Of a DNA stretch of 64,000 nt, positions 2,117 through 34,111 are shown in pieces. A program made the translations under genes and the position numbers. The notes under the pieces were generated by a model. It did not search any database, had not been told where the DNA came from, and saw only the letters and a program-made list of their open reading frames with translations. Source of the DNA: Haloarcula sp. CBA1127. Its GTDB lineage: Archaea; Halobacteriota; Halobacteria; Halobacteriales; Haloarculaceae. The number at the start of each line of letters is the position of its first letter. The first letter of the stretch is position 1. Where the stretch lies: NCBI RefSeq assembly GCF_001485575.1, contig NZ_BCNB01000006.1, positions 1,674,001-1,738,000 of the forward strand. The letters are read 5' to 3'.

Positions 2117-4090
2117 ATGGCTGAGTCGTCTCTGCTGTCTACCCTCCACGATCTTCGGGACCGGAGCCGGTCCTGGTTCGCGGACGACCCCCGCGCCACC
2201 GTGAAGCTCGTCGTTGCCGTGACGCTTCTCGGACTCATCCTCAGAGTCGTAGCGCTTGGAAGCCGCGTCGCCCACTTCGACGAGGGCCGCGTGGCCTACT
2301 GGGCGCTGCACCTCCGCGATTCTGGGTCGTTCGCGTACCGCTACATCATTCACGGCCCGTTCATCCAGCACATCGACGCCTGGCTGTTCACCGTCGCCGC
2401 GCCGACCGATTTCACGATGCGGCTCCCGGTCGCGATTGTCGGCGGCCTGCTCCCGCTAACGGCGTTGCTCTTTCGCGAACACCTCCGGTCCGACGAGACA
2501 GTCCTCATGGCCGCCTTTCTCGCACTCAATCCGGTCCTGCTGTACTTCTCGCGGTTTATGCGCAGCGACGTATTGGTCGCAGCGTTCATGTTCACCGCCT
2601 TCGGCCTGCTCGTCCGGTTTGTCGACACCCGGAAGGCACGCTATCTCTACGGCGTCGCCGCGTTCATGGCGCTCGGGTTCGCCTCAAAGGAGAACGCCAT
2701 CGTCTACGTACTGACGTGGCTCGGAGCGACCGGCCTTCTGCTGGCAAAGGTGCTCGTCCTTCCGAACGGCTACCGCGACGCGTTTGGCTTCCTCCGAACC
2801 ATCCCGGGCATCGGTGCAATCTGGGGCCGAATCGCTGGTCGCGTCCGGGCGGACGTAGGGCTCGTTGTCAACATCGTTCGCTCGTTCCGCGACCGCCATG
2901 ACAGCGCTGCCTCCGTCCTCGCAGCGTACGCGAGCCACATTGTGCTCGCCGCGCTGGTGTTTGGTTTCGTCTCACTGTTCTTTTATGCCCCGCGGGGGGC
3001 CGGCGTCGCGGGCATCGAACACCCGCCCGCGCCAGCTGCGAGTGGCGACGTGAACTTCTGGTCCGGCGTGACGAACCCATCGCTGTTCCCGGAGCTCGTC
3101 CAGACCACCTGGGAACGCGTCGTCGACCAGTACAGCGAGTGGTTCTCGCCGGCCTCGGAGAAAGCCACGACGACAGAAACCGGTCTCGTCGACTCTATCG
3201 AGACGTTCTACGAGAGCGTCGACGGCCACTACGAGGTGCTGCTGAAAGCGCTGGGCTACACCGCGGCCCCGCTGCTTCTGTTCTCGGTGTTTGGGTACGC
3301 GCTGGACCGACTCGGCACTGTCGAGCCGCGCCACCTCATCCCGTTTGCGGCCTACGGCGGCTACGTCTCGATTCTGGGTTACCCCATCGGGACCGATATC
3401 GGTGCGCCGTGGCTCGCCGTCCACGTCGTCGTCCCGCTGTCGATTCCGGCCGCCGTGGGGCTCGCTGCTGTGATCCGGTGGGGGAACGAATCGCTGTCGA
3501 CTGACGACGTGACCGGCGCTGCCATCGCCGCCGCCATCGTTCTGCTCGTTACTGCACTCGTCGTCAACACGACCGCAACGCGGGTGTACACCAACGAGCA
3601 TCTGGAGGGGAACCCGCTGGTCCAGTACGCCCAGCCACAGGAGTCGCTCCGTGCAGATCTGGCGGAGATGGACCGAATCGCGACGGCCAACGGCAACGGC
3701 ACCGATGTCGTCATGTATCACGGAGAGCGCGGCGACGCCTACGACGCTGACGACGCGTACGTCAAAGAAGACCGCGGTCAGTGGAACGACTCGTGGTGGA
3801 ACACCAGACCGACCTGCCTACAGTGGCACAATTCGCTGCCGCTGCCGTGGTACTACGCGGCCGAGGACGTGAACGTCTCCTGTGAGAACCGGTCCGACAG
3901 GCTCGCCGAGCAGGCGCAGGCGGACCAGCCACCGATAGTCATTACACAGCAGATCGACAGCACCGTCCCCACCGAACAGCTCGAAGCCGCCGGGTACGAG
4001 CCCAGAACCCACCGAATGCGAACGAAGTACAGCTCGAACGACATGACAGTGTGGGTCCACGAGTCCCACGGCCGAGAACCGAACCGTTAA
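2117..4090 (+). CDS. Agl23-like / GT39-type multi-pass membrane protein
   Basis: A 657-residue membrane protein resembling the haloarchaeal family named flippase activity-associated protein Agl23, related to PMT/GT39 glycosyltransferases. It begins with a cytoplasmic stretch, then about ten or more hydrophobic segments. An extracellular-loop motif HFDEGRVAYWAL after the first helix matches the acidic DE motif of PMT-type enzymes, which use lipid-linked sugars. A large hydrophilic C-terminal domain follows (from about residue 480). The likely role is in protein N-glycosylation or lipid-linked sugar handling, plausible for an organism with S-layer glycoproteins, but this is family inference. 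The in-frame ATG at 2093 is an alternative start; 2117 is preferred because the conserved region starts after it. Confidence 0.75.
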   Translation: MAESSLLSTLHDLRDRSRSWFADDPRATVKLVVAVTLLGLILRVVALGSRVAHFDEGRVAYWALHLRDSGSFAYRYIIHGPFIQHIDAWLFTVAAPTDFTMRLPVAIVGGLLPLTALLFREHLRSDETVLMAAFLALNPVLLYFSRFMRSDVLVAAFMFTAFGLLVRFVDTRKARYLYGVAAFMALGFASKENAIVYVLTWLGATGLLLAKVLVLPNGYRDAFGFLRTIPGIGAIWGRIAGRVRADVGLVVNIVRSFRDRHDSAASVLAAYASHIVLAALVFGFVSLFFYAPRGAGVAGIEHPPAPAASGDVNFWSGVTNPSLFPELVQTTWERVVDQYSEWFSPASEKATTTETGLVDSIETFYESVDGHYEVLLKALGYTAAPLLLFSVFGYALDRLGTVEPRHLIPFAAYGGYVSILGYPIGTDIGAPWLAVHVVVPLSIPAAVGLAAVIRWGNESLSTDDVTGAAIAAAIVLLVTALVVNTTATRVYTNEHLEGNPLVQYAQPQESLRADLAEMDRIATANGNGTDVVMYHGERGDAYDADDAYVKEDRGQWNDSWWNTRPTCLQWHNSLPLPWYYAAEDVNVSCENRSDRLAEQAQADQPPIVITQQIDSTVPTEQLEAAGYEPRTHRMRTKYSSNDMTVWVHESHGREPNR

Positions 4091-4115
4091 CCCTGCTGCT
4101 GTGAAAGCGCGCGGT

Positions 4116-5261
4116 ATGACGCTCACGTCACCAGGGCCGACCGTCGGCGTGGTCGGCGGTGGCCAACTCGGCCGGATGCTTGGCGAGGCGGCTGCGCCGC
4201 TCGGCCTCGAACTGCTCGTGACAGACCCGACGCCGGACTGCCCGGCAACGCCGGTCGTCCGCGACCAGATCGTCGGGGACTTCGACGAAGAAGCGACCCT
4301 GCGGGAACTCGCCGAACGCGCCGACTACCTCACCTTCGAGATCGAACTGGCCGATCCGGATGTTCTCGAACGGGTCGCCGAGGAGACGGGGACACCGGTA
4401 CATCCCGCTCCCGAAACGCTCCGAACTATTCAGGACAAGCTCGTCCAGAAGCGCCGGCTCTCGGATGCTGGGGTTCCCGTCCCCGAGTTCCGCGCCGTCG
4501 ACACCGCTGACGACCTCCGGGAAGCCTGCGAGGAACTGGGCTACCCCGCGATGCTCAAGGCCCGGACCGGCGGCTACGACGGCCGCGGGAACATCCGCGT
4601 CGAGGGGTCGGACGATGTCGAGGACGCTGTCGACGAGATTGCCGGCCCAGCGATGGTTGAGGAAATGGTCGACTTCGAGCGGGAACTGGCCGTTATGGGT
4701 TGTCGCGGCGCGGACGAGCGGGACACGTTCCCGGTCACCGAGACGATTCACCGCGAGGAGATTCTGCGGGAATCCGTCGCGCCGGCCAGAGCGTCACGAG
4801 CCGTCCGCGAACGCGCCCGAGATGTCGCTCACGACGTGCTTGACGTGATGGACGGCCGCGGCATGTTCGGTATCGAACTCTTCGAGACGACCGACGGGGA
4901 GATCCTGCTCAACGAGATTGCGCCGCGCCCGCACAACTCCGGCCACTGGACTATTGAAGGGTGCCATACCTCGCAGTTCGAGCAACACCTCCGCGCTGTC
5001 ACTGGCAAGCCGCTGGGGTCGACCGACCAGCGGTTCCCCACCGTGTCGACCAACATCCTTGGAGACGTGACCGAGCGCCAGCCGGCGGAGCTACGGGGCG
5101 AGGACAGTGTGCTTGGGACGCCGCGGGCACACCTGCACTGGTACGGTAAGCGCGAAGTGTACGGCCTCCGGAAGATGGGGCACGTGACGCTGACCGACGA
5201 CGACCGCGACGGCCTACTCGCCGACGCCCGCGAACTCCGTGACGGGCTGACCTTCGAGTGA
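4116..5261 (+). CDS. purK: 5-(carboxyamino)imidazole ribonucleotide synthase
   Basis: A 381-residue ATP-grasp enzyme that carboxylates aminoimidazole ribonucleotide to N5-CAIR using ATP and bicarbonate in purine synthesis. The N-terminal nucleotide-binding start VGVVGGGQLGRMLGEAA, the central TFEIE segment, and the ATP-grasp stretch KARTGGYDGRGN are diagnostic. The C-terminal region has the conserved NEIAPRPHNSGHWTIEGC motif. Length fits the family. ATG 4116 is chosen; an upstream in-frame GTG at 4101 would add five residues. The partner mutase purE is not next to it: a halocyanin gene follows after about 90 nt. purL lies about 49 kb downstream. Confidence 0.95.
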   Translation: MTLTSPGPTVGVVGGGQLGRMLGEAAAPLGLELLVTDPTPDCPATPVVRDQIVGDFDEEATLRELAERADYLTFEIELADPDVLERVAEETGTPVHPAPETLRTIQDKLVQKRRLSDAGVPVPEFRAVDTADDLREACEELGYPAMLKARTGGYDGRGNIRVEGSDDVEDAVDEIAGPAMVEEMVDFERELAVMGCRGADERDTFPVTETIHREEILRESVAPARASRAVRERARDVAHDVLDVMDGRGMFGIELFETTDGEILLNEIAPRPHNSGHWTIEGCHTSQFEQHLRAVTGKPLGSTDQRFPTVSTNILGDVTERQPAELRGEDSVLGTPRAHLHWYGKREVYGLRKMGHVTLTDDDRDGLLADARELRDGLTFE

Positions 5262-25274: not shown

Positions 25275-26036
25275 ATGCCGCGTATGTGGTCACTCGATCA
25301 TACGATGATGCGCGTCGAGGATCTGGACGCCTCGCTGGACTGGTACACGACACATCTCGATTACGAGGAGAAGGGCCGCTGGGAGGCGGACACGTTCACG
25401 AACGTCTTCCTCGGTCCGGAGGATGTCCACGAGGAGGGCGCATTGCTCGAACTGACGTACAACCACGACGGGCGCTCGTACACGATGGGCGACGCGTGGG
25501 GACACATCGCCGTCCGCTGTGACGACGTGTACGACGCCTACGACGAGCTGATGAACGCTGGCGTTGCGGACTACCGCGACCCGGACTCCTGTGGTGGCTC
25601 CTATGCCTTCGTCACAGACCCTGATGGCCACGAAATCGAGATCGTCGAGCGAGACCACGGCGCGAAGTGGTCGCTCGACCACACAATGATCCGTGTCGAA
25701 GACGCTGAACAGGCTATCGGCTGGTACGTCCGGAAGCTCGACTACGAACTGTTCCGCCGCGAAGAGTTCGATGACTTCGCGCTGTACTTCCTCAAACCAG
25801 AGGACGCCCCCGACGAAGCGATGTCGGTCGAACTTACCTACAACTACGACGGTCGGTCCTACGAACTCGGCGATGCGTGGGGGCATCTCGCGGTCCAGAC
25901 TGATGACCTCCACGACGCGTGGGAGACGCTGATGGGGCGCCACGCTGAGGACTACCGCGACCCCGAGAGCTGTGACGACCGCTATGCGTTCACCAAAGAC
26001 CCCGACGGCCGCGAAATCGAAATCGTGACGAACTGA
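25275..26036 (+). CDS. Tandem VOC-domain (glyoxalase-type) metalloprotein
   Basis: A 253-residue protein made of two similar vicinal-oxygen-chelate domains joined head to tail. Each starts WSLDHTM(M/I)RVED and ends with DPDG-(H/R)-EIEIV. Each half supplies a His in LDHTM, a second His in WGH(I/L)AV and a Glu in the final EIEIV, the usual metal ligands, so two metal sites are possible. Lactoylglutathione-lyase-like or dioxygenase-like activity is possible, but haloarchaea mostly lack glutathione, so the substrate is open. The ATG at 25275 and one at 25284 are both plausible starts. A hairpin terminator follows. Confidence 0.8.
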   Translation: MPRMWSLDHTMMRVEDLDASLDWYTTHLDYEEKGRWEADTFTNVFLGPEDVHEEGALLELTYNHDGRSYTMGDAWGHIAVRCDDVYDAYDELMNAGVADYRDPDSCGGSYAFVTDPDGHEIEIVERDHGAKWSLDHTMIRVEDAEQAIGWYVRKLDYELFRREEFDDFALYFLKPEDAPDEAMSVELTYNYDGRSYELGDAWGHLAVQTDDLHDAWETLMGRHAEDYRDPESCDDRYAFTKDPDGREIEIVTN

Positions 26037-26090
26037 CGGTACTGGTCGGCAGTAACCGTCTGTCCTAAGCTATTCTCACGCGGTAGCTGT

Positions 26091-26121
26091 CAGGAGACGA
26101 GCCTCCTGCAGAGTCGTTTTT
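26091..26121 (+). terminator. Hairpin plus T-run terminator after the VOC gene
   Basis: CAGGAG (26091-26096) and CTCCTG (26103-26108) form a perfect stem with a six-base loop, followed by five T at 26117-26121. Confidence 0.6.
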
Positions 26122-26151
26122 GAGCCAGCAGTCAGGGTCTGTGAAGCCCTG

Positions 26152-26232
26152 GGTCTCAGGACAGGAGACCATCTCCGATATGTAGATCTGGGGCGTCAGA
26201 CACCCGAATGACGGTCCTGTTCTAGATCTACA
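26152..26232. repeat. Two inverted repeats upstream of the first S-layer gene
   Basis: GGTCTC/GAGACC (26152-26157, 26165-26170) makes a short hairpin. A perfect nine-base pair of arms TGTAGATCT (26181-26189) and AGATCTACA (26224-26232) encloses 34 bases. No gene is seen between 26122 and 26308. The repeats may be regulatory or remnants of a mobile element; neither is shown. Confidence 0.45.
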
Positions 26233-26308
26233 GGCTTCTTATGTCACATCTAATCGACATAGACAGTGCTTCTCTAACCTGACCATTCATGACAATCAGA
26301 TATTCTTA

Positions 26309-26323
26309 CCACAAAACATTTAC
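26309..26323 (+). promoter_or_regulatory. Promoter of S-layer gene 1
   Basis: CCACAAAACATTTAC is nearly identical to a block upstream of the second S-layer gene (30051-30065) and lies at the same distance (50 versus 48 nt) from the conserved leader ATG. It reads as BRE plus TATA, giving a start near 26345-26350 and a leader of about 115 nt. Confidence 0.6.
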
Positions 26324-26358
26324 AACAGACACCTATCGTATAGACTGTACCCCTACCC

Positions 26359-26451
26359 ATGGCGCCAGAAGTGAGTACACCGGTCCGGTCTACACGCGAT
26401 CGCGCTGATTGCGTTCCGACCACGTGGAAAACTGCTGGGGTCGCCCGATAG
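26359..26451 (+). other. 30-codon upstream reading frame in the S-layer gene 1 leader
   Basis: An ATG at 26359 opens a 30-codon frame ending in TAG at 26449-26451, 12 nt before the S-layer ATG. The peptide would begin MAPEVSTPVRS and end VPTTWKTAGVAR. The second S-layer gene has an equal-length frame at the same place. Whether it is translated is unknown; RNA structure could equally explain the conservation. Confidence 0.4.
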
Positions 26452-26463
26452 CAAACACAAACT

Positions 26464-29208
26464 ATGACAGGAAATTCAGATAAGATTCGCAGCCTGTTTC
26501 TGACGGCGCTGATGGTCTTCTCGGTATTCGCCGGGACCGTCGCGTTCTCCGGTGGCGCAGCTGCCGCCGCGAACGTCTCCGTCGACCAGGCAGTCGAATA
26601 TAACAGCGGAACAGTTGAATTGGCATTTGATGGCGGCGTTGGAAGCGTCGCTTCCGGTGACGTCACAGTCTTCGTTGACGGCAACTCAAACCCGAGCAAC
26701 TTCGTCAGCGGCAACCCGTCCCTTTCGGACAATGATGGCGACGGCCGCCTTCAAATCGATCTTGACGACGACGTTCAGCCGAACCGCAACCTGACCATCA
26801 AGGTCACCGGTCTGACTGGTGGCGATGGCACGGTCGTTGCCGAGGACATCGATGTCACGTCGACAACGATTGATTCCTTCGGCAGTGACTCGGCTCGATC
26901 GTACAACGTCAACGTCTACCGTGGCGAAACAGTTGCCGTGGTGAACGACACCAACGGTGGCAATGTCTTCGTCGAAGAAGACCAAGGTAGCATTGTCTCC
27001 GACGACACGTACGAGACCAACAGTCAGGTCTACACCATTGATACCGAAAACCTCGACAGCGGTGAGCGCTACAACGTCTCGGTCAAACCACAGGACGACT
27101 CTGCTGGTGAAGCTGGCTTCAAGCTCAGCGACCTCGATCTGAACGTCGAAGCTGACGACAATGACATCACTGACGAGGACGAGGTCATCGCTAACGTCAC
27201 CATCACCCGTGGTGGCCAGCCGGCCAACGCGACTCTGTTCGCCGATGACGGCGACAAAGTCGACACGATTGTCAAGGACCGTCTCTCCGGTAACGATGAG
27301 ACGGACTTCATCTTCGACAACATCAGCAGCTACGACGGCTTCGACGCTGATGATGGTCCGTACACGATCAACGTGACGGACAACCAGACTGGCGTCACAG
27401 CCAGCACCGACCAGATCAACGTCTCCGAAGCTGGCGACGGTGATGCCAGCTTCGAGAGCAGTGTTGTCAACGACGATCGTGGTGATGTGGTCAACATCAC
27501 CTACCAGCTCGATAACGAAGATGAGGCTGTTGTCTTCGTCGGCGACGACGAGGACGACAACTACGCAATCTCCGGAACTATCGAGGACGACGACGGTGAC
27601 GGCGAAGTCACTGTCTCGTTCAACAGCTACCTCGCCGGCACGAGCGGTATCAGTGGCATCTCCGCCAGCGATATCCTCTACGTTGAGGGTGACGACGAGA
27701 TCACTGGTGTCGAAGAGGGTGGCTCCTTCAGTCGCAGCAACCTAGACGACGAGACGATTGAAGCCTCCAGCTACAACCTGAACGTCACTGCAGGCACGTC
27801 TCAGGAAGACAGCGCTGACTCCGTCGGAACGCTCCGACTGAGCGAGCGCTCCACTGAAAACATCCGTACCTGGGTGGCCCCACAGGATGCTGATCTCGAC
27901 GATGACGATATCGACATTCGTGATCGTATCGACCAGAACCTGACCCAGTCGAACGACATCGCTGACGGTGACCTCGTTGTCCACCAGATCGTTGCTTCTG
28001 GTGTCGAAGGCCCGCTCGCCTACGAAGAGGAAGTCAACAGCTCCTCCAGCACGACCCAAGCGTTCCTCCGGTCGACTGCTGGCGGCGCTAATAACAACGA
28101 CGTATTCAACCTCACCGTCAACCGTAGCGATGTCGGTGCAAACGCAGATCAGGACCCGCTCGTCCTCAACAGCTCCAACGTTGTTGTTGTCGACGACCCT
28201 GACAACAACACGTACTTCGTCGCTGTGGAGACCCAGAACGCAGAATTCGAGAGCGGCACGGCGATCCGCGAGGATGACGAAGATGACGAGCTCACGGCCA
28301 ACTTCACCGTGTCGCAGGACACTGGCCTGAGCGACGACAACGACAGCGCTGATGTGGAGTACAGCATCGTTGACCGCGACGCAACCATCGACACGACCAA
28401 CGGTCTCGTGCTGGTGCAGGCTGCCGCTGACCAGCAGATTACTGGAACGACCACGGTCGCGCCTGGCTCCGAATTTGAGGTCCAGATCGAATCCGAGAGT
28501 GAGTCCAACCCGTTCCTCGACCGACCTGAAGCGACTGTCGACGCGGACGGTACGTTCACTGCCACGGCCGACTTCAGTGACTACTCGGCAGGAACGAACT
28601 TCACCACTCAGACGCTCGATGTCGACGGTGACGAGCTCGGTGACGAAGAAGACGGACAGATCACCGATGCAGACACGGCCACTGTGAGCATCAGTGACCA
28701 GGAATCCGACGGTAGCGAAGTCGTCGTCGACAGCGCGCAGCTGTCCGCCGGTGGCTTCATCGCTGTCCATGCCGGTAACGCATCCGGCGACGTCGTCGGG
28801 AACTCCGAATACCTCGAGGCAGGCAGCCACGAGGACATCACGATCACGCTCGACGAACCGATGGACGAGGACTTCACGGCGGTCGCAATGCCGCACCTCG
28901 ACACCAACGGTAACGAAGCGTACGACTTCCCGGACGCTGACGGTCCGTACACCGCCAACGGCTCCGCCGTTACGGACAGTGCGAACGTGACCATCGCCAC
29001 CGAGGACACGCCTACGGACACGGAAGAGCCGACGGAAACCGAAACGGAACCGCCGGCAACCGACGAGGAAACTGACGCACCGGCAACCGATGAGCCGGCA
29101 ACCGAGGAAACCGAGACCACGGAAGCGTCCGGTCCCGGCTTCACGGCAGCCATCGCGCTCATCGCGCTCGTCGCTGCTGCACTCCTCGCCGTCCGACGCG
29201 ACAACTAA
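26464..29208 (+). CDS. S-layer glycoprotein 1
   Basis: A 914-residue major cell-surface glycoprotein. A Sec-type signal peptide (LFLTALMVFSVFAGTVAFSGGAAAA) is followed by haloarchaeal S-layer repeats rich in Asp and Gly, many N-x-S/T sites, a conserved BGTF-like surface domain near residues 740-830, a Thr/Glu/Pro-rich, probably O-glycosylated spacer (EEPTETETEPPATD), and a PGF-CTERM tail: PGF, a hydrophobic helix, and RRDN. ArtA is expected to cut near PGF and attach a lipid. The gene has a long conserved leader and a hairpin terminator and is nearly identical in large blocks to the second copy at 30203. Commonly named csg in this group. Confidence 0.93.
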   Translation: MTGNSDKIRSLFLTALMVFSVFAGTVAFSGGAAAAANVSVDQAVEYNSGTVELAFDGGVGSVASGDVTVFVDGNSNPSNFVSGNPSLSDNDGDGRLQIDLDDDVQPNRNLTIKVTGLTGGDGTVVAEDIDVTSTTIDSFGSDSARSYNVNVYRGETVAVVNDTNGGNVFVEEDQGSIVSDDTYETNSQVYTIDTENLDSGERYNVSVKPQDDSAGEAGFKLSDLDLNVEADDNDITDEDEVIANVTITRGGQPANATLFADDGDKVDTIVKDRLSGNDETDFIFDNISSYDGFDADDGPYTINVTDNQTGVTASTDQINVSEAGDGDASFESSVVNDDRGDVVNITYQLDNEDEAVVFVGDDEDDNYAISGTIEDDDGDGEVTVSFNSYLAGTSGISGISASDILYVEGDDEITGVEEGGSFSRSNLDDETIEASSYNLNVTAGTSQEDSADSVGTLRLSERSTENIRTWVAPQDADLDDDDIDIRDRIDQNLTQSNDIADGDLVVHQIVASGVEGPLAYEEEVNSSSSTTQAFLRSTAGGANNNDVFNLTVNRSDVGANADQDPLVLNSSNVVVVDDPDNNTYFVAVETQNAEFESGTAIREDDEDDELTANFTVSQDTGLSDDNDSADVEYSIVDRDATIDTTNGLVLVQAAADQQITGTTTVAPGSEFEVQIESESESNPFLDRPEATVDADGTFTATADFSDYSAGTNFTTQTLDVDGDELGDEEDGQITDADTATVSISDQESDGSEVVVDSAQLSAGGFIAVHAGNASGDVVGNSEYLEAGSHEDITITLDEPMDEDFTAVAMPHLDTNGNEAYDFPDADGPYTANGSAVTDSANVTIATEDTPTDTEEPTETETEPPATDEETDAPATDEPATEETETTEASGPGFTAAIALIALVAAALLAVRRDN

Positions 29209-29246
29209 CCGGAACTACTCCGGTCCCTGAACATCGGTTTTTCTTT
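29208..29246 (+). terminator. Hairpin terminator of S-layer gene 1
   Basis: ACCGGA (29208-29213, using the last base of the stop codon) pairs with TCCGGT (29219-29224) around a five-base loop; a T-rich run follows at 29238-29246. The second S-layer gene has the same structure with a compensatory change. Confidence 0.8.
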
Positions 29247-30050
29247 CGCGCGTGCGCAAGCAGTGCCAACAGACTACAAAACGGCCCATACTTGTTGTAG
29301 CCAGAGTGTTATCCGGGTCGCTTCTGAACGGCTAATTGCTGGTCCGCAGTCGTGATTGGGTCACTGTGAGGGTAGCTTCGGCAATCGACCTTGTGTTCGT
29401 AGATCGCATAGGACGGCGTTCTCAGCGGGACAGCGCTACCCGTGGCGCTCATCATGTACTGCCGGTCGACCTACGTTTTGTTGCGGTTGCAGTTGATAAT
29501 CGCTGCACCCGGTCTCCGTGTCTTTACGACACTGGCCGGGAACTTCGTGATGTCCCCGGCCGCTTGCAGCGTTGAGAACCAAGTCGTATGGCTCTTGTGA
29601 GAGGCTCGTTTGGAGGACGCTTCGAGCATCAAAGTCAACCTATCCGGGCGTTCAGAATTCACATCCGCGACCGTCTCTGTTGGTGTCCGATCTTCTCCGA
29701 ACAATACACGCCGGTCTGTGGCGTTCCTTGTGCTCCTCATATAGTTGCGCCAGCTCTTGGCTATCTGTTTTCATTTCAGCTGTATTACTCCCCACCAATC
29801 ACTGATAGCCGATTCCGGTTTTCATGATACCGAGATATCGCTTGCAGGCCACAGCAACATCGGACCTCGCGTTCATCGCCAGGCAGTGGAACGAACGTCG
29901 CTCGAATCAGGAGACAGAGGCGTATCTCAACCGGGGTGTTTTTCTATCCAATTTTTGAACAAGTCAGATAGACTTCCATATCAGGCCTAAATGTATGTCC
30001 AAAAACATTATTGAATAACTATTACTTGTAGTATACTTACCAACATTATT
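29247..30050. other. About 800 bp without a recognisable gene between the S-layer genes
   Basis: Several frames of 60-90 codons exist (for example minus strand 29471-29740), but their codon use is unlike neighbouring genes, none is recognised, and overlapping frames on both strands are similar in length. Around 29980-30050 the DNA is AT-rich, leading into the second S-layer promoter. It may contain decayed gene or mobile-element remnants; I see no inverted-repeat ends or transposase motif. Confidence 0.4.
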
Positions 30051-30065
30051 CCACAAAGCATTTAC
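30051..30065 (+). promoter_or_regulatory. Promoter of S-layer gene 2
   Basis: CCACAAAGCATTTAC matches the block at 26309-26323 with one change and stands 48 nt before the leader ATG. It is the likely BRE/TATA for a leader of about 115 nt. Confidence 0.6.
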
Positions 30066-30098
30066 CACACTTCGGGCAATGTACCGATACCCCTACCC

Positions 30099-30191
30099 AT
30101 GACGCCAGAAGTGAGTACGCCGGTCCGGTCTATGCGTGGCCTCGGTGGTCACGTTCCGACCACGTGGAAAACTGCTGGGGTCGCCCGATAG
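30099..30191 (+). other. 30-codon upstream reading frame in the S-layer gene 2 leader
   Basis: The frame from ATG 30099 to TAG 30189-30191 has 30 codons, the same as in copy 1, and ends 11 nt before the S-layer ATG. It begins MTPEVSTPVRS and ends VPTTWKTAGVAR; the six or seven middle residues differ completely from copy 1 without any change in length. Confidence 0.4.
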
Positions 30192-30202
30192 CAAACACAA
30201 AC

Positions 30203-32962
30203 ATGACAGATACAAGCGAAAAAATCCGCAGCCTGTTTCTGACGGCGCTGATGGTCTTCTCGGTATTTGCCGGGACCATCGCGTTCTCCGGTGGCGCAGC
30301 CGCCGCCGCGAACGTCAGCGTTCAGCAGGCAGTCGAATATAACGACGGTACAGTTGAATTGGCATTTGATGGCGGCACTGGGAGTGTCGCTCCCGGCGAC
30401 GTCACAGTCTTCGTTGACGGCAACTCAAACCCGAGCAACTTCGTCAGCGGCAACCCGTCCCTTTCGGACAATGATGGCGACGGACGTCTTCAGATCGATC
30501 TTGACGACGACGTTCAGCCGAACCGCAACCTGACCATCAAGGTCAGCAATCTCGGCGGTGACTCGGTCGTTGCCGAAGACATCGACGTCACGTCGACGTC
30601 GATCACGTCCTTCGGCAGTGACTCGGCTCGATCGTACAACATCAACGTCTACCGTGGCGAAACAGTTGCCGTGGTGAACGACACCAACGGTGGCAATGTC
30701 TTCGTCGAAGAAGACCAGGGTAGCATTGTCTCCGACGACACGTACGAGGCCAACAGTCAGGTCTACACTGTCGACACGGAAAACCTCGACACTGGTCAGC
30801 GCTACAACGTCTCGGTCTCGCCGCAGAACGACTCTGTCGGTGAAGCCGGCTTCAAGGTCAGCGATCTCGACCTGAACGTCGAAGCTGACGACAATGACAT
30901 CACCGACGAGGACGATGTCATCGCCAACGTCACCATCACTCGCGGTGGCCAGCCGGCCAACGCGACTCTGTTCGCCGATGACGGCGACAAAGTCGACACG
31001 ATTGTCAAGAAACGTCTCTCCGGTAACGATGAGACGGACTTCATCTTCGGCAACATCAGCAGCTACGACGGCTTCGACGCTGATGATGGTCCGTACACGA
31101 TCAACGTGACGGACAACCAGACTGGCGTCACAGCCAGCACCAGCCAGATCAACGTCTCCGAAGCTGAAGACGGCGACGCCAGCTTCGAGAGCAGCGTTGT
31201 GACGGACGAGCGTGGTGACGTGGCGAACATCACCTACCAGCTCGATAACGAAGACGAAGCTGTTGTCTTCGTCGGCGACGACGAGGACGACAACTACGCA
31301 ATCTCCGGAACTATCGAGGACGACGACGGTGACGGCGAAGTCACTGTCTCGTTCAACAGCTACCTCGCCGGTGGTAGCAGCGATGTCGGAGCTGGCTTCA
31401 GTAGTGCCAGTGTTTCCGCTAGCGATATCCTCTACGTTGAGGGTGACGACGAGATCACTGGTGTCGAAGAGCACGGCACCTTCGAACGCACCAACCTTAG
31501 CGAAGAGACAATTGAAGCCTCCAGCTACAACCTGAACGTCACTGCAGGCACGTCTCAGGACAGTAGCGCTGACTCCGTCGGAACGCTCCGACTGAGCGAG
31601 CGTTCCACTGAGAGCATGCGTAGCTGGGTGGCCCCACAGGACGCTGAGCTCGACGATGACGATATCGACATTCGTGATCGTATCGGCCAGAACCTGACTC
31701 AATCGAACAACATCGCTGACGGTGACCTCGTTGTCCACCAGATCGTTGCTTCTGGTGTCGAAGGCCCGCTCGCCTACGAAGAGGAAGTCAACAGCTCCTC
31801 CAGCACGACCCAGGCGTTCCTCCGGTCGACTGCTGGTGGCCCTGGTAACAACGACGCGTTCAACCTCACCGTCAACCGCACTGATGTCGGTGCAAACGCA
31901 GATGAGGATCCGCTTGACCTCAACAGCACCAACGTCGTTGTTGTCGACGACCCTGACAACAACACGTACTTCGTCGCTGTGAAGACGGAGCAAGCGAACT
32001 TCTCCAGCGGCGTTCCGATCCGCGACGACGACGAAGATGACGTCCTTACGGCCAACTTCACCGTGTCGCAGGACACTGGTCTGGCCGAAGACAACGACGG
32101 CATCGAAGACAGTTACAGCATCGTTGACCGCGATGCAACTCTCGACACGGCTAACGGCCTCGTGCAGGCTCAGGCTGCCGCTGACCAGCAGGTTACCGGA
32201 ACGACCACGGTCGCGCCTGGCTCCGAGCTTGAGGTTGAAGTCGAGTCCGAGAGTGACTCCAACCCGTTCCTTGACCGACCTGAAGCGACTGTCGGCCAGA
32301 ACGGTACGTACACCGCTACGGTTGACTTCAGCGCCTACTCGGCAGGAACGAACTTCACCGCTCAGACGCTCGACGTCGACGGTGACAACCTCGGTGACGA
32401 GGAAGACGGACAGCTCACCGATTCGGACACGGCCACTGTGAGTATCAGTGACCAGGAATCCGACGGTAGCGAAGTCGTCGTCGACAGCGCACAGCTGTCC
32501 GCCGGTGGCTTCATCGCAGTCCACGCCGGTAACGCATCCGGCGACGTCGTCGGGAACTCCGAGTACCTCGAGGCAGGCAGCCACGAGGACATCACGATCA
32601 CGCTCGACGAGCCGATGGACGAGGACTTCACTGCGGTCGCAATGCCGCACCTCGACACCAACGGCAACGAAGCGTACGACTTCCCTGGCGCTGACGGTCC
32701 GTACACCGCTAACGGCTCCGCCGTTACGGACAGTGCGAACGTGACTGTTGGCACCGAGGAAGAGCCGACGGCCACGGAAGAGCCGACGGAAACCGAAACG
32801 GAACCGCCGGCAACCGAGGAGCAGACTGAGGAGACCACCACCATGGACTCCGGAACCGACGAAGCTGAGACCACGGAAGCGTCCGGTCCCGGCTTCACGG
32901 CAGCCATCGCGCTCATCGCGCTCGTCGCTGCTGCACTCCTCGCTGTCCGACGCGACAACTAA
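30203..32962 (+). CDS. S-layer glycoprotein 2
   Basis: A 919-residue tandem paralogue of the S-layer protein at 26464. Signal peptide, Asp-rich repeats, the acidic BGTF-like domain and PGF-CTERM tail (SGPGFTAAIALIALVAAALL, then RRDN) are shared. Differences cluster in short blocks: after residue about 390 (GGSSDVGAGFSSASV versus a shorter form), around residue 620-670, and in the Thr-rich spacer (EEQTEETTTMDSGTDEAE). Other blocks are identical at the DNA level over dozens of bases. ATG 30203 is chosen; an in-frame GTG at 30164 lies in the leader and is out of frame in copy 1, so it is not a conserved start. Confidence 0.93.
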   Translation: MTDTSEKIRSLFLTALMVFSVFAGTIAFSGGAAAAANVSVQQAVEYNDGTVELAFDGGTGSVAPGDVTVFVDGNSNPSNFVSGNPSLSDNDGDGRLQIDLDDDVQPNRNLTIKVSNLGGDSVVAEDIDVTSTSITSFGSDSARSYNINVYRGETVAVVNDTNGGNVFVEEDQGSIVSDDTYEANSQVYTVDTENLDTGQRYNVSVSPQNDSVGEAGFKVSDLDLNVEADDNDITDEDDVIANVTITRGGQPANATLFADDGDKVDTIVKKRLSGNDETDFIFGNISSYDGFDADDGPYTINVTDNQTGVTASTSQINVSEAEDGDASFESSVVTDERGDVANITYQLDNEDEAVVFVGDDEDDNYAISGTIEDDDGDGEVTVSFNSYLAGGSSDVGAGFSSASVSASDILYVEGDDEITGVEEHGTFERTNLSEETIEASSYNLNVTAGTSQDSSADSVGTLRLSERSTESMRSWVAPQDAELDDDDIDIRDRIGQNLTQSNNIADGDLVVHQIVASGVEGPLAYEEEVNSSSSTTQAFLRSTAGGPGNNDAFNLTVNRTDVGANADEDPLDLNSTNVVVVDDPDNNTYFVAVKTEQANFSSGVPIRDDDEDDVLTANFTVSQDTGLAEDNDGIEDSYSIVDRDATLDTANGLVQAQAAADQQVTGTTTVAPGSELEVEVESESDSNPFLDRPEATVGQNGTYTATVDFSAYSAGTNFTAQTLDVDGDNLGDEEDGQLTDSDTATVSISDQESDGSEVVVDSAQLSAGGFIAVHAGNASGDVVGNSEYLEAGSHEDITITLDEPMDEDFTAVAMPHLDTNGNEAYDFPGADGPYTANGSAVTDSANVTVGTEEEPTATEEPTETETEPPATEEQTEETTTMDSGTDEAETTEASGPGFTAAIALIALVAAALLAVRRDN

Positions 32963-33001
32963 CTGGAATCGCTCCAGTCCCTGAACACCGTTCTTTCTTT
33001 T
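32962..33001 (+). terminator. Hairpin terminator of S-layer gene 2
   Basis: ACTGGA (32962-32967) pairs with TCCAGT (32973-32978) around a five-base loop, followed by a T-rich run at 32991-33001. It sits exactly where the first copy has its terminator. Confidence 0.8.
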
Positions 33002-33109
33002 GCGCGCTACGCCGGTAGCGGCGGCGCTGCCGTTGACTCGTTCTGACGACGACACCGCACAGTAGCGCAACGACAAAACATATACGCCGGTTTGGCTAAC
33101 GTACGAGCA

Positions 33110-34111
33110 ATGAGTGAGACAGTCCTGCAGACGGGCGTCGACATCGCTGGACTGTCGTTCGACCCGGTCACGGTCTCGGAACCGCTGATGTGGCTTGTTC
33201 TTGTGGCGTTTCTGGGAAGCGTAGCCATTGCCCAGTACGACGAGGGACTTGCTCGCCCAGTTGGAACGGGCGGCTGGGTTCTGTTCGCAGCGTACTGGCT
33301 CGTTCTGGCACCACACTTCATCTTGATACAGAAAAGCGTCGTCGAGGGGCTGGGAAGCGTCATCGCCGTTCCACTGTCGCTGTACACCGGCTACTTACTC
33401 TGGAACGGCCGGGAGTCGCTGCTGGTGTTGACCCGTGCCATCGGCATCATGGGCGTCATCTACGTGCCCTTCCTCACTATTGGACCACTCCGCCAGACAA
33501 TCATCGAAATCGTCACCGATCAGGTCGTCTTCCTGATGACGCTCATCGGGTACGACCCAATGGTGGTTGACGGGCTCTCGCACAACGGCATCGATATCGC
33601 GTCGAAACAGTACCCCTACGAGAACACGTTCTGGTTCGACGGGAACGAGCGGCCGATAACGTACACTATCATTCTGGCCTGTACGGGTATCGGCAGCATC
33701 TCCATCTTCGCCGGCGGAATACTGGCAGTCAAGGCACCGTGGCGGCGGAAGCTTCGCGTGCTGGTCGTGGCCGTCGGCATCATCTACGTACTGAATCTCA
33801 TTCGGAACCTCGGCATCGCGCTGGCATTTGGCCTCCAGAAAGCGCAGTTCTTCCCGGGAACGGTCATGGCGCTGTTCGGCCTCAGCGACGCACAGCTGGT
33901 GTCCTACTACATCGTCGACCGGATGCTGGCGCAGTTCGGCTCAGTCATCGTCCTCGTTGGGCTGACGTGGGTGCTGATGCGGGAGCTACCGGAGCTCACT
34001 GTTATCATCGAGGACCTCCTGTTTCTGGTGACCGGAACCGAGTACGACCTTGGAACGACATTCGAAAAGGACCAGTCGGAGTCGGGTCCTGCGACGCCCG
34101 GTGACGACTGA
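33110..34111 (+). CDS. artA: Archaeosortase A
   Basis: A 333-residue multi-pass membrane transpeptidase-like enzyme that recognises PGF-CTERM proteins, removes the C-terminal helix and enables lipid attachment at the cell surface. About eight helices are visible. The catalytic set is present: Cys191 in ILACTGIGSISIFAGG, Arg232 in LIRNLGIA and Arg271 in VDRMLAQFG; the 41- and 39-residue spacings match the Cys173, Arg214 and Arg253 I recall for Haloferax ArtA. The ATG at 33110 starts MSETVLQTG; an earlier frame start adds six residues. It lies about 150 nt after an S-layer gene that encodes a predicted substrate. Confidence 0.93.
   Translation: MSETVLQTGVDIAGLSFDPVTVSEPLMWLVLVAFLGSVAIAQYDEGLARPVGTGGWVLFAAYWLVLAPHFILIQKSVVEGLGSVIAVPLSLYTGYLLWNGRESLLVLTRAIGIMGVIYVPFLTIGPLRQTIIEIVTDQVVFLMTLIGYDPMVVDGLSHNGIDIASKQYPYENTFWFDGNERPITYTIILACTGIGSISIFAGGILAVKAPWRRKLRVLVVAVGIIYVLNLIRNLGIALAFGLQKAQFFPGTVMALFGLSDAQLVSYYIVDRMLAQFGSVIVLVGLTWVLMRELPELTVIIEDLLFLVTGTEYDLGTTFEKDQSESGPATPGDD

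Follow-up and report, generated by a model that had tools for sequence, protein, structure and literature searches.

The window, a 64,000-nt stretch of the Haloarcula sp. CBA1127 genome, contains two S-layer glycoprotein genes in tandem, each ending in a short hairpin that is followed by a T-rich tract. The products of both genes have a TIGR04207 signal, a BGTF surface domain, and PGF-CTERM, and both score as surface glycoproteins; the full-length S-layer model NF041335 matched both at E ~1e-84, which falls under that model's cut-off. S-layer mRNAs are among the most abundant mRNAs of archaea. The features of the two genes are as follows, with the matches given for covariance model R1, described below.

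26464..29208, + strand: S-layer glycoprotein gene 1 (914 aa, PGF-CTERM), from domain matches
29208..29224, + strand: gene 1 3' hairpin ACCGGA-ACTAC-TCCGGT, with arms at 29208-29213 and 29219-29224; model R1 match G000:C6:1703206-1703249
29238..29246, + strand: gene 1 T-tract TTTTTCTTT, 13 nt 3' of the stem; presumed transcript 3'-end region
30203..32962, + strand: S-layer glycoprotein gene 2 (919 aa, PGF-CTERM), from domain matches
32962..32978, + strand: gene 2 3' hairpin ACTGGA-ATCGC-TCCAGT, with arms at 32962-32967 and 32973-32978; model R1 match G000:C6:1706960-1707003
32991..33001, + strand: gene 2 T-tract TTCTTTCTTTT, 12 nt 3' of the stem; presumed transcript 3'-end region

An archaeosortase A gene (TIGR04125) lies downstream of both S-layer genes at 33110-34111. 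Between it and the gene 2 T-tract is a GC-rich inverted stretch at 33003-33031 (GCTACGCCGGTAGC onward), which recurs in many members of the genus.

Both genes end in TAA (29206-29208 and 32960-32962), and the final base of each stop codon is also the first base of the hairpin. The first-pass annotation had described two 6-bp stems overlapping the stop codons, with differing loops and T-rich runs behind them, and this description is correct to the letter; re-reading the sequence also confirmed that the third stem pair is C-G in gene 1 and T-A in gene 2, with pairing kept. When 44 nt of each gene end were folded as single sequences, the folds were moderately better than those of shuffled sequences (z of -1.33 for gene 1 and -2.01 for gene 2), so that either hairpin alone would not stand out. 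Of 731 crudely called genes across 864 kb of the same genome, four have a perfect stem of at least 6 pairs that begins with the final base of the stop codon, the two S-layer genes among them. A hairpin followed by a T-tract was found in 6 of 374 other non-operon genes of the Haloarcula genome. With both counts this low, a genome-wide hairpin terminator code is unlikely. No curated Rfam model overlapped the hairpins in a search of region 26000-34000 at E values up to 1.

Searching 32 Haloarcula genomes retrieved 50 PGF-CTERM gene ends, and 43 of them served as the S-layer tails analysed here. Of the seven excluded ends (L022, L062-L066, and L074), L074 does contain ACGGGCACGTCCCGT, and the others belong to a third paralogue in which the stem is mostly absent or bulged. 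For instance, L062 is a third S-layer-like gene located far from the tandem pair in the same genome, on the - strand (ORF 2450-5029 in reverse-complement coordinates), and has no 3' hairpin, and its relatives L063 and L064 have the hairpin in bulged form. The stem is present in all 43 S-layer tails, either flush with the TAA stop or 4 nt away, the latter only in L069, where it follows a doubled TAAC. Four stem types occur among these tails: CCGG in 16, CGGG in 12, CTGG in 10, and CCAG in 5.

Pairing was then counted in an alignment (A2) of the 33 rows with 5-nt loops, ten of the 43 tails being omitted (nine for shorter loops or a shifted position and one as a duplicate). Among its distinct rows, 99.4% of cells are paired across the six stem positions, and two-sided changes occupy 15 cells, against 3.4 in shuffles. 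When the partner arm is slid out of register in the same alignment, pairing drops to 8.6-46%. Pair 3 is C-G in 21 rows, U-A in nine, and G-C in three, pair 4 is G-C in 28 and A-U in five, and neither pair is half-changed in any of the 33 rows. Base-pair covariation in homologues, the hallmark of a conserved structured 3'-UTR element, is therefore present, and the check across further S-layer homologues proposed in the first-pass annotation came out in its favour: within the genus the stems are kept paired, and the loops vary in both sequence and length.

How many independent changes underlie this pattern is a separate matter. Placed on a tree of the S-layer proteins, the stem types require a minimum of 16 changes, 11 of them at pair 3 and five at pair 4, although this was a quick tree that drew long-branch warnings. 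Six genes of five genomes share the 17-nt gene 2 hairpin (ACTGGAATCGCTCCAGT) without a single difference, and another hairpin (ACCAGAGCAGTTCTGGT) is identical in five genes on scattered branches. The five CCAG rows would demand five changes on the tree, yet they all share a single identical 17-nt hairpin. Identical hairpins on distant branches indicate that whole hairpin alleles move by recombination. The tandem S-layer genes (26464-32962) also evolve in concert: in 11 of 13 tandem pairs the two copies have the same 3' stem type, the pair in the window being one of only two discordant pairs, and hairpin alleles recur in distant species. As judged from these sequence patterns, recombined hairpin alleles together with conversion between tandem copies explain much of the 16-change count, and as few as three independent two-sided mutations may have occurred in the genus. 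The C-G/T-A difference within the window may likewise be an allele imported by recombination, rather than two local compensating mutations. The first-pass annotation had taken this difference as direct evidence for selection on the hairpin. With many homologues, selection is strongly supported, but the window pair by itself is no direct evidence, since hairpin alleles recur identically.

The same observations could be read as an inverted repeat under no selection at all, carried along by shared ancestry and by gene conversion between tandem paralogues; the stem types common to both copies and the identical alleles on distant branches fit such a history. Nevertheless, it is already contradicted by loops that diverge next to unbroken stems, and the same architecture is found across families despite different stem sequences (see below), so we regard it as extremely improbable.

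A covariance model (R1) built on the 33 genus rows found the two S-layer sites in the Haloarcula sp. CBA1127 genome and nothing else. Across the genus it gave 47 matches, with all 32 genomes represented, and 46 of these are ends of surface-glycoprotein genes and one is not. In the family, 41 of 146 genomes had a match, and the ten additional matches comprise eight at surface genes and two elsewhere. An exact pattern scan of an 84,980-species genome collection picked out 16 sites in 13 stretches, every one of them haloarchaeal, with the qualification that the pattern contains the coding end and is thus biased toward S-layer-type genes.

For the class Halobacteria, 157 of 242 genomes had an NF041335 match; 60 regions were selected from a longer list, and 59 of them had a recognisable gene end. 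The best hairpin reached -8 kcal/mol or lower in 46 of these 59 tails (4.8 in shuffles), an ACCG-type stem was present in 44 (1.8 in shuffles), and such a stem with a T-tract shortly after it in 39 (0.13 in shuffles). Among 729 other tails of the Haloarcula sp. CBA1127 genome, 21 have an ACCG stem and none has an ACCG stem with a T-tract. By family, the ACCG stem was found in 31/39 tails of f4, 7/10 of f2, 4/6 of f1, 1/1 of f3, 1/1 of f6, 0/1 of f7, and 0/1 of f8; some of the 15 tails lacking it as defined here have other stems. CTRACC occurs in 30 of the 59 tails against 1.8 in shuffles, and TTTCTTTCG in 21 against 0.13. Two further models were similarly specific. R2 gave 53 matches in 34 of the 242 genomes, and 29 of the 30 inspected are surface-gene ends; R3 gave ten matches in nine genomes, of which eight are at clear surface genes, one is at a probable one (contig edge), and one is not at such a gene. 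Comparison of these homologues shows that selection maintains the 3' hairpin and that the hairpin is linked to S-layer/PGF-CTERM surface genes.

The layout across the class is often a CURAC box, then a stem (mostly 5-8 bp and usually ACCG...CGGU), a short loop, a spacer, and a U-rich tract. The unpaired flank is conserved across families, as ACCACGACUGACCG in the R2 group and CUAACUAACCGG elsewhere, and one group retains a CGNNA loop. The spacer from stem to T-tract is about 10-27 nt, mostly 11-17. In five tails (L149, L156, L160, L161, and L168), a second stem, TCCGC-TTCAC-GCGGA, follows the main hairpin and precedes the T-tract. Outside Haloarcula, the distance from stop codon to hairpin is 7-65 nt, mostly 11-19, and in a Halomicrobium-like genus a TGA some 13 nt upstream serves as the stop, with the hairpin and its CTAAC flank retained. 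The hairpin is thus unlikely to act through the stop codon, given this range of distances against 0 in Haloarcula, and its retention in TGA-ending relatives argues against involvement in translation termination. By this comparison, the element predates Haloarcula, whose stop-abutting stem represents a local variant.

Wobble pairs, a textbook sign of structured RNA, are few in the 3' hairpin. Core pairs 2-5 have no G-U in any of 116 genus cells. Among CCG-anchored stems from 47 class tails, pair 4 is G-C in 35 and C-G in 10, and pair 5 is G-C in 16, C-G in 14, and A-T in three, in a count that demanded Watson-Crick stems and so could not register internal G-U, and in which a few of the 47 are not the main stem. 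One tail (L260) changes from C-G to T-A at a further stem pair. At the outermost pair of the CCG-anchored stems, the unpaired variants are A.C in seven and G.U in one. With A.C commoner than G.U at this pair and no G-U in the core, this is not the classic RNA signature. A 6-bp stem may not tolerate G-U, and the conserved A of the outermost pair may be kept for a reason other than pairing. The missing G-U intermediates, and the appearance that both sides change at once, could also reflect a signal at the DNA level (a cruciform or a palindromic binding site) or templated repair that perfects a palindrome. We consider this very improbable: the element is invariably located after the stop codon and before the T-tract on the sense side, its loops differ in length and its arm sequence is free to change, and in the R2 group the outer pair is U-G in 3 of 11 rows. 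The free stem letters, variable loops, and fixed position favour action at the RNA level over DNA.

The 5' leaders of the same two genes (26359-26451 and 30099-30191) are conserved in the genus and form a single long hairpin, imperfectly paired, in which RNA covariation is strong. Across 31 distinct genus leaders, 770 of 775 cells are paired, including 72 G-U and no A-C; the leader thus shows the full wobble sign, which the 3' hairpin shows weakly. Elsewhere in the class, many leaders contain ACCCCTACCCA and have a stable fold. The leader also holds a 30-codon ORF that ends 11-12 nt before the S-layer start and is in frame in 35 pattern-matching genus leaders. Its variable columns fall 9/10/10 across codon positions, and since substitutions lack codon periodicity, we doubt that it is a coding uORF; it may reflect structure only.

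With respect to transcription termination, passages of PMC8716108 credit archaeal termination to a U-tract with aCPSF1, a hairpin not being strictly needed. The S-layer ends resemble such aCPSF1/FttA-dependent U-tract terminators in having a U-rich tract downstream of the stop, at both window genes, as a probable 3'-end site, and differ from those in the same passages (PMC8716108) by the covarying hairpin 12-13 nt upstream of the tract. In Haloferax volcanii, according to excerpts of PMC7237163, T-stretches are the strong signal, and hairpins are found near 503 termination sites; in a reporter, a T-stretch gave 95% termination and a hairpin 59%. The S-layer hairpin is like these in lying within reach of the 3' end, whereas the H. 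volcanii hairpins, as excerpted, form heterogeneous clusters at many genes and the S-layer element belongs to one gene family, class-wide, with a fixed order of parts. The main text of PMC7237163 mentions neither the S-layer nor HVO_2072, our search of the open-licence literature returned no paper on an S-layer 3'-UTR hairpin, and we found no passage on S-layer mRNA stability in PMC10134880.

That reporter result, together with a GC-rich stem followed by a U-tract, as in bacterial Rho-independent terminators, raises the possibility that the hairpin itself dislodges the polymerase at an adjacent U-run. However, the stems of both window genes, at 6 bp, are shorter than the 7-8 bp or more of bacterial terminators, and the spacers of 13 and 12 nt (up to 27 nt in the class) replace the usual 0-2 nt. 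A standard scan returned neither hairpin; its alternative stem at 29220-29237, directly 5' of the gene 1 T-run, has no counterpart at gene 2 and was rejected. A further small stem, GAAC/GUUC, next to the T-tract is not supported by its pair count in the genus (78% paired, no two-sided change) and was likewise rejected. We therefore hold a bacterial-type intrinsic terminator to be improbable.

The reading we prefer, and think fairly probable, is that of a class-inherited S-layer 3'-UTR hairpin on an mRNA that ends in the U-tract. Transcription of the S-layer genes would end in this tract through the archaeal RNA polymerase with aCPSF1/FttA, which would leave the hairpin about 12-20 nt short of the newly formed 3' end. 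There it would block 3'-to-5' decay, and it probably also sharpens termination. Stabilising hairpins at the 3' ends of bacterial and chloroplast mRNAs are proposed to block 3'-to-5' exonucleases, and by analogy the S-layer hairpin may have the same role, although the archaeal decay machinery differs.

The main rival to protection from decay is a specific binding partner, given the conserved CURAC flank. A putative dedicated RNA-binding protein or sRNA would read the CURAC box and hairpin for autoregulation or mRNA handling, and the U-tract alone would terminate transcription. The near confinement of the element to PGF-CTERM surface genes agrees with this, and the flank and certain loops (CGNNA) are strongly conserved, which may point to a binding partner rather than stability alone; within Haloarcula, however, stem sequence and loops are free to vary, and we judge a pure recognition site rather unlikely. 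We would tentatively suggest, as a possibility, a broader arrangement in which the CURAC box, covarying ACCG hairpin, spacer, and U-tract, along with the structured 5' leader, are read by a specific factor that would set, throughout the class, the stability and level of the most abundant surface protein of the cell.

The S-layer gene ends amount to a natural series of compensatory mutations at a very abundant mRNA, and they bear on whether RNA hairpins matter in archaeal 3'-end formation or mRNA decay. Since haloarchaea of many genera have versions of the element, its role would be directly testable in the tractable H. volcanii.
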